From Paenibacillus tundrae (GTDB lineage Bacteria; Bacillota; Bacilli; Paenibacillales; Paenibacillaceae): a stretch of 64,000 nt of DNA. Under the pieces are notes generated by a model, which saw only the letters and a program-made list of their open reading frames with translations, was not told where the DNA came from and did no database searches. The position numbers and the translations under genes are program-made. Below, piece after piece: positions 1 to 32,702 of this stretch (position 1 is its first letter; every line of letters begins with the position of its first letter). The DNA is taken from assembly GCF_036884255.1 (NCBI RefSeq), contig NZ_CP145605.1, positions 6,013,001 through 6,077,000 on the forward strand, in the 5' to 3' direction.

Positions 1-957
1 GTTAGTGATATTCTCTGCCGTAACATTCATACAGTAATCGTACGCATTCTCCAGCAATTTGCCTTCCGTGTTCGTGGCTGAGATCAAGTGACACAGGTTA
101 AACGGTGGCAATGGCGAGTTAACGGTCAGGATATTACCGTACTTCTGAGTAAAACGTTCACCGCGGCTGTCCACGTTCATCCAGTAGTCCAGCTCTTTAA
201 GCGCAGCATAACCGTTCTTGCGGATATACTCCCGCGTATGCTCACTCAAGCTTTTGTTAGACAAGTTCACGTCTGGCGTGAACAGGTAGCCCAGTGTATT
301 GACGCGGTCGATCCCCGCTGAGCCATGATCACGTTCGATGATGCCACGCACAATATAGGAGATATCGAGGAAGCACCCACTGCCAGTACCCCCGGACAGA
401 CCTGTAAGCAGGAACACCATCAATTTCTTATTCGTACCTACGGAAAGGGTCTTAATCTTCTTATCGATGGCTTGCACCACTTGGTTGATCTTCGTGAACA
501 ATAGCAGACGACCTGCCTGACGAACGCCTGCAGCTCCGTTCATGCCATCCGTAATGCTCAGCTCTGGCGAGAGCCAGTCCGTAATATAAGGCTCCAGTAC
601 ACTGCGGTTCTGCAGCAATCCGCCAATCTCGGCATTGGACAGTAGCACAAATTCATTAATCGGGTCTAGACCGATTCCTTTATATCTCTTCGCACGATCC
701 TGTTCGTTCGTTTCGAATGCGAGAAACTCGACATTGTCTGGCTTCTCCATTTTCTTCTTAGACACTGGATCTTGAGGCAGCTTGAAGCGACGATTAATCT
801 GATACTTGAGACGAAGCAATGCATCGATCCCTGTTCCCCCAAGACCAATAATCAACATCGGGTTATCGATGGTATCAACCCTGATTTTTTCGCTGACAAT
901 TCCTCCGCCAAGCGATACATCCAGTTGCTGAATATGTTCTCTAACAATCGGTTTCAT
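1..957 (-). CDS. FtsZ/tubulin-like GTPase (Tubulin_2 type), 3' end outside window
   Basis: Translating the minus strand from the ATG at 957 gives 319 open codons running off the window, so the C-terminus is missing. The N-terminal part reads IIGLGGTG (residues 36-43), a Rossmann-like nucleotide loop, and later LTGLSGGTGSG (184-194), which matches the tubulin/FtsZ signature GGGTGSG that binds the GTP phosphates. AAAGGGAGG lies just upstream of the ATG. The protein belongs to the divergent bacterial tubulin-like proteins annotated as tubulin-like domain proteins; family members are thought to be nucleotide-dependent cytoskeletal or membrane-remodelling proteins. It lies 18 bp downstream of the VWA-domain gene and is probably co-transcribed with it. 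It is not FtsZ itself: the N-terminal extension and the spacing between the two loops differ. Polymerisation and partners are unknown. Confidence 0.82.
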   Translation of the reverse strand, partial: MKPIVREHIQQLDVSLGGGIVSEKIRVDTIDNPMLIIGLGGTGIDALLRLKYQINRRFKLPQDPVSKKKMEKPDNVEFLAFETNEQDRAKRYKGIGLDPINEFVLLSNAEIGGLLQNRSVLEPYITDWLSPELSITDGMNGAAGVRQAGRLLLFTKINQVVQAIDKKIKTLSVGTNKKLMVFLLTGLSGGTGSGCFLDISYIVRGIIERDHGSAGIDRVNTLGYLFTPDVNLSNKSLSEHTREYIRKNGYAALKELDYWMNVDSRGERFTQKYGNILTVNSPLPPFNLCHLISATNTEGKLLENAYDYCMNVTAENITN

Positions 958-975
958 TCCATGTCCTCCCTTTGG

Positions 976-2769
976 TTACTCTAAATATTCAATCAAAATT
1001 GTTTTATCCGCTTGTTGCAGTGGGATGCTCAGCCGATCACCGTTCTTCAGTTCAACGCCTGAGCTTGCATCAACCGCACGACCGGATTTCTCCAGCGTGC
1101 CTCCTGCCGTGTTGCGTATCATAATCCGGTCACCATTGCCGGGTGTAAATATATATTTTTCGGTTTCCTTAAGTTCAGGGTCTAGTTGCAGCAATTGATG
1201 TAGATGGAACTTGCCCCGGAACGATGCTAGCTTTTTGTATTGTGGATAGGACTTGTCTCCCGTGTTCTCATCACGAATCTCGACGACCATCTGACCGACA
1301 AACCCACGATTTTTACGTTTCAGCCAGCCCATCAGGAACCAGCCTCCAACCGCTACAACGATCAGAGCGATGACACCCAGAATGACCGGTAACCATGGGA
1401 ACGGCTTGTCCTCTCCACCGGCTGATGTCGTTGGCTGAGTTCCGCTTCCCGCTGCTCCGCCCGCATTAATGATGACTGGAGCGCTCTCGCGGTAAAAGCT
1501 ATCTTCCTCTGCCCGAATAACTAATTCATATTGATGGTTATCCGGAACGGTGAACGTACCAGCAAATCCATCTCCCGTGTTCTCGATTGGATGTTCCTCA
1601 CTTTTACCTGTATCCACATCGTTGATCACCAGCGTTGCCTTCATGTCCGCATACAAATCTTGATCCTGTAATGGTTGACCGCCATTCTCCAGCTTCGCGG
1701 TTAGATCGATCTTGTCGCCTTTTTTATAGGACTTGGTCTTAATTGGATCCACGACGAGTTGCAGATCGTAGTTAAACAGCAGATTGATATCGATACTGTC
1801 CTTCGGAGCCCCTTTGACTCGTAGCTTCCAATCTCCCTCCTCTGGTTTGAGCAGCTTCACCAAGGAATAGCTCTTCGAAGTGGATAGCTTGGCTGCATCG
1901 GAGTTCAGATCGACAGCCTTGCCAGCTGGATCGGTCAATTGAATCTCGACTAGCTTCGATGACATGATCGAGATATTAGCTTCTAACACACTATCATTCG
2001 GCACGTTCACGGTAACTTCCTGATAACTGCCGTTTCCCGTAATGGAAGGCAGCTTTACGACATTTAATTTGGCATGATCTGCGAATATTTCGCTAAGAAT
2101 CTGTGGCAGATCATCCGGCGTATCGGTGATAAAGGACTTACCGCCTGTCTGATCGGCTAGGTCAGCGAGTGCATCCTTGTTCAGTTTGCCATCGGCATTC
2201 AGACCGATTGTATACACGGGAATGCCTTGTGCTTGTGCTTCCTTAACGGCTATGTCCAGATCCGCATCGGACTGTGCCTGTGTACGCCCTTTTGTTTTGT
2301 TAAAATCGTTGTTACCATCCGCCAGTAGCACGATCATCGGGGAATGAGACGGGTCAGCACCATGATTCAGGATATTCACAGCCTCGGCGACACCTACTGA
2401 AATGTCGGTGTATGGCCCTCTGCCTAGCTGATCAATAAAGTCCTTCAGGTTGCTTTTGTCTGCATCTGACTGGATCTCTAGCATTGCCTTCTCCCGCTCC
2501 ACCTGATCGGTGTATGCGACAATCCCTACCTTGTCCCCTTGGACAGGTAACATATCAATAAACATTTTCATGGCTTCATTGCTAATCTTGTCACGATCAC
2601 TTGTGTTCATCGAATTACTTACATCGGCCACAAGTACCGCATCAATTCCGCTTGATTGTGTCTGAGCCGCTACCGCCTGAGGCAGTAACGTCGAAGGCAG
2701 CAGTAGCGTTAGTAATACCAGCAGAACCAAGGTTCCACTAAGCCAGCGTATTTTGCGTGTGCGCAGCAT
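976..2769 (-). CDS. Membrane-anchored VWA-domain protein
   Basis: 597-residue protein. A basic N-terminus and hydrophobic stretch (about 9-34) look like a signal peptide or anchor. A von Willebrand A domain follows (about 40-245) with a complete metal-ion-dependent adhesion site: DVSNS, a later Thr in PYTD, and LLADGNND. Next come Ig-like beta-rich extracellular regions, a Gly/Ser/Thr spacer, one strong transmembrane helix (about 460-485) and a ~110-residue beta-rich cytoplasmic tail that could be FHA-like. I start at the ATG at 2769 because GAAGGAG lies 8 bases upstream; the frame is open further to 2826 without a site. The arrangement suggests an external metal-dependent binding domain linked through the membrane to the tubulin-like protein encoded next. 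The partnership is inferred from adjacency only. Confidence 0.8.
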   Translation of the reverse strand: MLRTRKIRWLSGTLVLLVLLTLLLPSTLLPQAVAAQTQSSGIDAVLVADVSNSMNTSDRDKISNEAMKMFIDMLPVQGDKVGIVAYTDQVEREKAMLEIQSDADKSNLKDFIDQLGRGPYTDISVGVAEAVNILNHGADPSHSPMIVLLADGNNDFNKTKGRTQAQSDADLDIAVKEAQAQGIPVYTIGLNADGKLNKDALADLADQTGGKSFITDTPDDLPQILSEIFADHAKLNVVKLPSITGNGSYQEVTVNVPNDSVLEANISIMSSKLVEIQLTDPAGKAVDLNSDAAKLSTSKSYSLVKLLKPEEGDWKLRVKGAPKDSIDINLLFNYDLQLVVDPIKTKSYKKGDKIDLTAKLENGGQPLQDQDLYADMKATLVINDVDTGKSEEHPIENTGDGFAGTFTVPDNHQYELVIRAEEDSFYRESAPVIINAGGAAGSGTQPTTSAGGEDKPFPWLPVILGVIALIVVAVGGWFLMGWLKRKNRGFVGQMVVEIRDENTGDKSYPQYKKLASFRGKFHLHQLLQLDPELKETEKYIFTPGNGDRIMIRNTAGGTLEKSGRAVDASSGVELKNGDRLSIPLQQADKTILIEYLE

Positions 2770-3057
2770 GAGGTGTACTCCTTCACGTTTGAGATTAAAA
2801 TGGGAATAGTTTATTATAGGCGTCAAGCCTTAAGGAAATCTTAACAGTCTACTAATAAATTCTGAAAAGCACCCCTATCTTGAGTTACAATTCTGTAATG
2901 ACTGGCAAAAATCGACGATTTCAGCCTTTTTGTTGGAACAAATATTCCAACTATGGAAATATGATATAGTTATTGCCATCAAACCGCAATATAACAACGT
3001 AGCGTGCGATCACCTTTATTTGTACGCACAATAACGCTATCTAGAGAGGATCGAATT

Positions 3058-3201
3058 ATGGTTACATACGTATGTCTCACCATATTGTTTCTTTTTGTCC
3101 TAATTAGAGCAGTTCGATTCTATCTTCACAACCGGAAGCCTGTGACCCGAGAAGATTCAGATCGCACGCTGTACACTATACTGAACGGTGAGCGTGATTA
3201 G
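3058..3201 (+). CDS. Small single-pass membrane protein
   Basis: 47-residue protein with one hydrophobic helix at the N-terminus (TYVCLTILFLFVLI) followed by a basic, polar tail. The ATG at 3058 has AGAGAGG 8 bases upstream, which is why I prefer it to an in-frame upstream start at 3004. It is divergent from the VWA/tubulin-like pair and only 3 bp from the following zinc-ribbon gene, so those two are probably co-transcribed. No family is recognised. Confidence 0.6.
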   Translation: MVTYVCLTILFLFVLIRAVRFYLHNRKPVTREDSDRTLYTILNGERD

Positions 3202-3204
3202 AGC

Positions 3205-4137
3205 ATGAGCACAAAACAAGTGGTTTCTATTAGACCTTTTAACCGGACGACATATGCCTTTGAAAAGTTGCGTGTGTGCAAGCGATGTGGACAATATACC
3301 TGCTTATGGGAAGATGAATGCACATCCTGTGGCCGCAGCACACTGATTCATGTTCAGGTGCATGCTGGCTCACGGGTTAAGCGCCGGATCGCTCGTGATT
3401 TCCTATTTACGATTATTCTGGGGTCTGCTGCTACCTATTTTGGTGAGACGACTGACCAAACGATGCTAGCTGCAACCGTGTCTCTACTGCTCATCGGATG
3501 GCTCATCTATATTCATAAACGCGCCTTTCCTGTTCAACAACTCCGCCAGATGAAGCGGTTGTTGTACGAGGATCGGGAAAACATTCGTCAGGGCATCAAC
3601 CGCAACTGGGCGCTAGTCGCCGAAGCCCGCCAGGAGGATGAAGCTCTCGCATACGAGATGCTGCGTGAGATTGGCTCACTCGTATACAATGATCGAATTC
3701 GTCTCCAGCAAGTGGCTCTACTTCAATCCTTCGTCCTCCGCAGTGACATGGATTTACAGTTAAAACCACTGCTGCTTCGTAATTTTGAGCGGCTGCTCGC
3801 CGAATATATTGGTGAGATTGCTCGGATCAAGCCAGATCTGATTCGTGAAGATGCCATTCGTTACATCGCTACGTACGAGGTGCATATTTTACAGCTACAC
3901 AATGGCATTCAGATCCTAACTGCAGTGGCGGCCGCGGCTGTACGCAAAAGCAAATATATTGAGTTATTCCCTAGTCTTATTACCCGCTACGCCCGCTTTA
4001 TTCCCAAGGATCGCTTCATGCGCTTGTATCACACCATAGAACGCTACCCCCACAAAGCGCGAGGTGGACTGGCAGAATCAGTAGGTCGGATATATGACGA
4101 GAAATATCGAGATAATTACGCAGACGGGCATGTATAG
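3205..4137 (+). CDS. Zinc-ribbon membrane protein of unknown function
   Basis: 310 residues. The N-terminus holds a rubredoxin-like zinc ribbon with C25/C28 and C39/C42. Two closely spaced hydrophobic segments follow (about 68-105). The rest is a long, mostly helical cytoplasmic domain rich in Arg, Leu and Glu with no motif I recognise. The ATG is 3 bp past the stop of the preceding small gene and has no strong ribosome binding site of its own, which suggests translational coupling. Being divergent from the VWA/tubulin-like genes with a short shared upstream region, it may belong to the same system. A terminator hairpin follows about 60 bp downstream. Confidence 0.6.
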   Translation: MSTKQVVSIRPFNRTTYAFEKLRVCKRCGQYTCLWEDECTSCGRSTLIHVQVHAGSRVKRRIARDFLFTIILGSAATYFGETTDQTMLAATVSLLLIGWLIYIHKRAFPVQQLRQMKRLLYEDRENIRQGINRNWALVAEARQEDEALAYEMLREIGSLVYNDRIRLQQVALLQSFVLRSDMDLQLKPLLLRNFERLLAEYIGEIARIKPDLIREDAIRYIATYEVHILQLHNGIQILTAVAAAAVRKSKYIELFPSLITRYARFIPKDRFMRLYHTIERYPHKARGGLAESVGRIYDEKYRDNYADGHV

Positions 4138-32155: not shown

Positions 32156-32318
32156 ACGTATGTACGTACACTCAAGAAAACAACTACAACACTTGAATAC
32201 ACAGAGTCGTCGAGTTGTTGAATACGCCAAATAAAAGGCCTACCAGGCGAACCGTCTGTCCGCCTGTTTCCTGATTATTCGTACACCTTTCCTTTCCGCG
32301 AAGGGTTTGGTGACACAT

Positions 32319-32481
32319 GCAAGGTAGGTCTCCTGGCTCTGGATCATCAGCTTCTTCTTCTGTCTTCCCCGAATAACGAGTGACTTCAATCAAAAAAGAG
32401 CTTCACCATTACAGTGGCGGGACCGCTCGGGATTTGCACCCGATTCCCTGTTACCTCTTGCTTGACGCAAGAGCACCTTGC
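32319..32481 (-). promoter_or_regulatory. Cobalamin (B12) riboswitch
   Basis: On the minus strand the aptamer starts with GCAAGGT (P1, 32481), runs through AACAGGGAA, GGTGCAAATCCCGAGC, GGTCCCGCCACTGTAA and ends with the B12 box AGCCAGGAGACCTACC, closing P1 with ACCTTGC (32319). All main conserved blocks of the class are present in the right order. It leads into a terminator and then the cbi operon, so coenzyme B12 should shut the operon off by premature termination. It is separated from the upstream hemD by that gene's own terminator. Confidence 0.95.
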
Positions 32482-32702
32482 TTGTTTTCAATATGTAATT
32501 CAGCATACTATCCACGAGATCGGTCAGATCAAACCTGATAATGTTGAACGTTCCCCGTATAGGCTGGAATGAGCACCATGCCAAATCATTTGTTTGTATC
32601 ATAACATCGCTCAGGAAAAAATGTCCATGTTTAAGATCAGGATAAACCGCTTACCTTTTCTCCAAACTTTAGAATAAATCCATTCACGAAACTAGAGAAC
32701 AG

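Follow-up and report, generated by a model that had tools for sequence, protein, structure and literature searches.

The two-tubulin GAP1-N2/DO-GTPase/FtsZl1 system of Bacilli as a nine-gene set including a divergent membrane-protein pair: the locus of Paenibacillus tundrae

What do a tubulin/FtsZ-like protein, a VWA membrane protein and two membrane proteins encoded on the opposite strand do together in Paenibacillus tundrae, and are these four genes the whole of the system? They lie at the left end of a 64,000-nucleotide stretch of DNA (contig NZ_CP145605.1; G000:C1:6013001-6077000), called the window below, the left edge of which falls inside an operon and cuts the locus in half. All four genes of the original prediction, namely the tubulin-like gene with a GGTGSG loop, the VWA gene, the gene for a 47-residue membrane protein and the zinc-ribbon gene, were found where it had placed them. 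The unit in the whole genome comprises nine genes, of which only four were described because the window starts inside the operon.

Gene content and published relatives

The operon runs on the minus strand into the genome to the left of the window, in the order VWA1 (597 residues), TUB (1129), TUB2 (805), VWA2 (431), an FN-like protein (215), DO-GTPase (421) and GAP1 (1059), with intergenic gaps of about 0-63 bases. Within the window, VWA1 occupies positions 976-2769 (minus strand), and positions 1-957 (minus strand) encode the N-terminal 319 residues of TUB, a Tubulin_2/FtsZl1 protein whose full gene spans L002:10568-13957 (G000:C1:6010568-6013957). The plus strand carries two genes divergent from the operon, sm47 (3058-3201), encoding a 47-residue protein with a single transmembrane (TM) segment, and ZnR (3205-4137; 310 residues), the stop codon of sm47 lying 3 nt upstream of ZnR. 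The Bacilli-type set is composed of these nine genes, with a tenth (DIV3) that is absent from the window's genus.

On the basis of its sequences, the seven-gene core is assigned to the already described GAP1-N2/DO-GTPase/FtsZl1 system, of the two-tubulin Firmicute kind. The main text of Kaur, Burroughs, Iyer & Aravind (2020, eLife, PMC7159879) describes a Firmicute 'tubulin theme' of GAP1-N2/DO-GTPase systems, comprising two tubulin genes, a YtkA-type VWA, a multi-TM VWA, an FNIII protein and a GAP1 with a polar extension. The locus shares with this theme GAP1-N2/GAP1-M, a DO-GTPase with N-terminal zinc ribbons, two tubulins, immunoglobulin (Ig)/YtkA-type and multi-TM VWAs, a putative FN-like protein, and the TM segment and polar extension of GAP1, whereas sm47, ZnR, the approximately 600-residue DIV3 and the loss of the guanosine triphosphate (GTP) loop from TUB2 do not appear in that main text. 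The FtsZl1 family, with its vWA and GTPase operon partners, is found in Makarova & Koonin (2010, PMC2875224), whose main text proposes membrane remodelling and includes Brevibacillus brevis among its examples; the GGTGSG-bearing tubulin N-terminal domain, the long C-terminal region and the VWA/GTPase operon are the same here, whereas the OmpA and protein kinase of the published operons are missing from this locus. Since the family and its partners were published in 2010 and the Firmicute gene set in 2020, the label 'uncharacterised' had to be given up in the sense of undescribed. As judged from the two main texts, sm47, ZnR and DIV3 are undescribed; the unnamed associated families A1-A2/B1-B9 mentioned in the main text of PMC2875224 could include ZnR.

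Co-occurrence of sm47 and ZnR with the operon

Among 350 genomes spread over Bacilli, in which full-length tubulin was defined by E<1e-70, full-length tubulin and ZnR were detected in an identical set of 54 genomes from four families, none carrying one alone. In every case the two genes diverged and lay about 3-5 kb from each other. Within the family, ZnR was present in 49 of 101 genomes, each with a tubulin gene nearby on the opposite strand; the single exception, G087, has a 26%-identical tubulin, no ZnR and a differing neighbourhood. Relatedness among the genomes would by itself raise a plain tally of this kind, and the pattern within genera therefore carries weight: in g9, g15 and g16, ZnR and tubulin are present together or absent together. 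VWA1 was located on the opposite strand in all of 80 named loci and tubulin in 79, the remaining contig ending first, and sm47 stood directly upstream of ZnR in every one. Gene order was identical for all nine genes in eight loci of other families and in 18 of the 20 family loci, the other two being without the system. Recurrence of the VWA and zinc-ribbon genes beside the tubulin family, the lack of which had been named beforehand as grounds for overturning the original prediction, was thus observed, and the one conserved unit that it foresaw is borne out in 54 of 54 Bacilli genomes, 49 of 50 family genomes and 80 of 80 named loci. Because they accompany the system in every Bacilli relative checked, sm47 and ZnR very likely belong to it. 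In a wider sample of the phylum, three genomes (G622, G487 and G671) carry tubulin without ZnR, and the sm47-ZnR pair therefore marks the Bacilli type.

Translation of sm47 starts at the ATG at 3058, preceded by the ribosome site AGAGAGG (AAGGA-type). Across 21 genus relatives, the ratio of nonsynonymous to synonymous polymorphism (pN/pS) was 0.23 in its frame, and the two shifted frames gave 1.2 and 2.5; because the ratio is low in that frame alone, sm47 is a real coding gene under purifying selection and not a chance open reading frame (ORF). Its product aligns along the whole length across genera, the gene overlaps or abuts ZnR, and matches in Brevibacillus-type loci had E-values of 1e-5 to 1e-12. 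In two of 18 family loci (L069 and L080), sm47 was too diverged for a plain search and was recovered by translation/profile search.

ZnR carries a CxxC-x10-CxxC zinc ribbon, all four cysteines of which are invariant in alignment A1. The protein is conserved across several families and is 96-97% identical to the copies in P. tundrae and P. sp. Root52. An AlphaFold2 model with a mean predicted local distance difference test (pLDDT) score of 90 comprises the ribbon, two long helices arranged as a membrane hairpin (residues ~57-110) and an all-helical C-terminal domain; with basic residues on either side of the hairpin, both ends would probably lie in the cytoplasm. Compared with the PDB, the model had no match at E<0.001; designed helical and 14-3-3 proteins ranked highest, at an uninformative TM-score of ~0.3 or below. 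Among PDB sequences, the ZnR profile matched nothing beyond zinc ribbons of generic type (L40e, Nop10; E>0.1).

The third divergent gene, DIV3, encodes about 580-640 residues with an N-terminal membrane helix and lies co-directionally downstream of ZnR (for example, L122:10952-12691). It was found in 36 of 53 Paenibacillus loci outside the window's genus, as well as in each of the seven loci from other families (L084-L090); among the family genomes it was present in 28 of 101, each time beside ZnR and never without it, the copy in G057 being a decayed remnant. DIV3 was absent from the window's genus, a search elsewhere in the window's genome was also empty, and Pfam gave no match to the protein. 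As a further candidate member, LP170 (L002:904-1416, downstream of GAP1) was ruled out, being present in just one genus relative among the 20 family loci.

The tubulin pair, the other components and the promoter region

TUB matched Tubulin_2 (PF13809) with E=1.1e-75 and is 94-98% identical within the genus. All 19 of the 19 Paenibacillaceae copies retain an intact GGTGSG loop, as does every further copy checked, those of other families included. In TUB2, the loop was found in none of the 19 Paenibacillaceae copies, nor in any further locus checked, and TRx(D/E)DPxN takes its position in 17 of the 19. The TUB2 sequence matched Tubulin_2 weakly here (E=0.006) and above the cut-off in two relatives, G097 and G078. 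By probability, the best structural relatives of its model are TubZ and CetZ (Foldseek probability 1.00/0.98), with which the model would share its fold class; unlike these solved structures, to which it is ~10-14% identical, TUB2 has no nucleotide loop and has a long helical C-terminal region. Such a region follows the tubulin domain in TUB as well, and in a TUB-TUB2 profile comparison a probability of 76% was obtained, covering the downstream part only; the tubulin profile gave chance matches only against PDB sequences. Because TUB keeps the GTP loop while TUB2 has lost it, the occurrence of a GTP-binding tubulin beside a loop-less partner suggests hetero-assembly.

Weak Tubulin_2 matches in ORFs of ~280-460 residues (G245, G132, G255, G160, G308 and G029) were rejected as members of the system, as the loci examined (L079, L091 and L092) are without any system gene. 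Three ORFs of ~390-460 residues (G245:C11:6567-6869, G132:C1:3523127-3523588 and G255:C8:53102-53398), with partial Tubulin_2 matches just above the cut-off, belong to a different tubulin-like family. The exceptional genome G087 contains another Tubulin_2 subtype at L082:5282-17460, where a VWA-like gene (747 residues) is followed by genes for a GGTGSG tubulin (1123), a 728-residue membrane protein and a 1407-residue protein; apart from the tubulin, no sequence match to GAP1, DO-GTPase, ZnR or the remaining system genes was obtained in this neighbourhood.

VWA1 starts at the ATG at 2769, preceded by a GGAG-type ribosome site, and is composed of a signal peptide, an extracytoplasmic VWA domain (PF00092, E=2e-13) with a metal-ion-dependent adhesion site (MIDAS), an Ig/MG2-like region, one TM helix (residues 462-480) and a cytoplasmic tail of ~110 residues. 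The MIDAS residues are conserved (DVSNS, YTD and ADGNN). The MIDAS, external domain and single TM helix of the original prediction are all present. Conservation is the same in the tail and the VWA domain (0.77 each) and 0.50 in the TM helix. Nothing in the PDB matched the tail, and hence no fold is claimed for it; a YtkA domain was not matched in Pfam, and a weak MG2 match was the only one in that region. A tandem duplication of VWA1 was noted at L093:2901-6571 (G059). A VWA domain was also matched by Pfam in VWA2, which has six TM-like segments. The FN-like protein stands in its expected position in all loci examined, and Pfam gave no match to it, FNIII included. DO-GTPase matched DO-GTPase2 (PF19993) above the cut-off (E=6.9e-7) and carries the motifs GASQVGKS, DVAGEG and TKSD, plus two CxxC pairs; GAP1 matched GAP1-N2 (PF20013, E=2.8e-41) and GAP1-M (PF20014, E=5.8e-25) and has a membrane helix (residues 808-826) and a polar tail.

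Between the divergent genes, an extended -10 element was recognised in the genus alignment at 2962-2970 (plus strand) and is probably the promoter of sm47-ZnR. The window copy reads TGATATAGT, most relatives have TGATATAAT, and the latter 9-mer was found in 43 of 53 Paenibacillus loci outside the genus versus 0.15 expected in shuffles. The VWA1 leader contains a palindrome, TTAAG-N5-CTTAA (2830-2844), in 25 of 27 genus loci and five of 53 elsewhere, which may be an operator. This leader (2770-2880) is nearly invariant across the genus species aligned, exceeding expectation for a plain promoter. A scan for consensus promoters and terminators gave chance-level results. Elsewhere in the window, an ordinary cobalamin riboswitch (RF00174, 118.8 bits; 32306-32495, minus strand) lies upstream of a cobalamin-biosynthesis cluster (~19.7-32 kb).

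A proposed GTP-switched envelope complex and its alternatives

The simplest reading of these sequences would be that a signal received outside the membrane is relayed inward and, by way of a GTPase switch, governs tubulin assembly. The VWA domains outside the membrane may bind a cell-wall or surface ligand via the metal site, and the signal would be carried inward by the tail of VWA1 and the membrane helix of GAP1, switching DO-GTPase; DO-GTPase would in turn control assembly of the loop-intact tubulin with its loop-less partner beneath the membrane, where the ZnR hairpin protein and sm47 may anchor the pair. We give a probability of roughly 0.5 to the system being such an envelope-spanning, GTP-switched complex with an sm47-ZnR anchor and a role in surveillance or maintenance. 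Of the nucleotide-driven envelope machine in the original prediction, the inventory has stood, in that most parts are membrane-linked or nucleotide-driven. The combined proposal of an asymmetric tubulin pair, an undescribed ZnR-sm47 anchor module and a machine spanning the envelope, in which GTP-switched polymer assembly would follow from a signal outside, is offered tentatively.

Several observations weigh against this complex. GAP1, the pseudo-tubulin TUB2, the FN-like protein and ZnR evolve faster (73-83% identity), which would suit a conflict sensor too; the pseudo-tubulin fold has low E-value support (Foldseek E 0.04; model pLDDT 71); the promoter region is in part confined to the genus; and no experiment on the system was found in the literature searched.

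The predicted immune or conflict function of Kaur et al. (PMC7159879), in which DO-GTPase/GAP1 would sense an invader and tubulin-like superstructures would disable the cell or the invader, is possible at distinctly less than even odds. The gene set fits the GAP1-N2 tubulin theme of that main text, the fast evolution of GAP1, the FN-like protein and the pseudo-tubulin agrees with it, and so does the patchy presence among the genera of the family; against it, none of the nine proteins matched the PADLOC-DB 2023 anti-phage defence models, no obvious toxic effector was seen, phage records held no relative of the system, and plasmids held no close relative, with one remote match only. Within the window's genus, moreover, the system is present in 16 of 16 genomes, one downstream neighbour is common to all 27 loci and several to most, and the engine genes are 96-99% identical (GTPase 99% and tubulin 96.5%, versus 87-94% for adjoining housekeeping genes). 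The evidence on purpose is mixed; because the GTPase and tubulin are highly conserved, downstream neighbours are shared, every genome of the genus carries the system, and phage copies are absent and plasmid matches limited to the remote one, envelope maintenance or surveillance is modestly favoured over a phage arms race.

Membrane remodelling (vesicles or invaginations) with tubulin as a force-generating filament, as proposed by Makarova and Koonin (PMC2875224), is considered unlikely. Such a role would suit a GTPase of the tubulin superfamily that has a VWA protein, another GTPase and membrane proteins as partners, with several parts membrane-embedded, but according to the main text of that paper the T6-H7 elements, which standard filaments require, are not recognisable in FtsZl1, and a reviewer of it raised localisation problems; in the published text searched, GTP-dependent filament formation was never demonstrated for the family. 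That sm47 and ZnR are mere neighbours of the seven-gene system is very improbable: their transcription runs away from the operon, and the main texts of PMC7159879 and PMC2875224 do not mention them, but co-occurrence is complete over four Bacilli families with no ZnR outside, absences coincide within g9, g15 and g16, and the genes further downstream differ between two Paenibacillus groups.

The envelope complex proposed above concerns a widespread bacterial tubulin family that has been without a known function for over fifteen years. Reconstitution or deletion work based on the published seven-gene text would probably be incomplete. With two obligate membrane proteins overlooked by simple annotation, one of them of 47 residues, and a loop-less tubulin, the complete parts list for Bacilli would turn the family's setting into a concrete complex.

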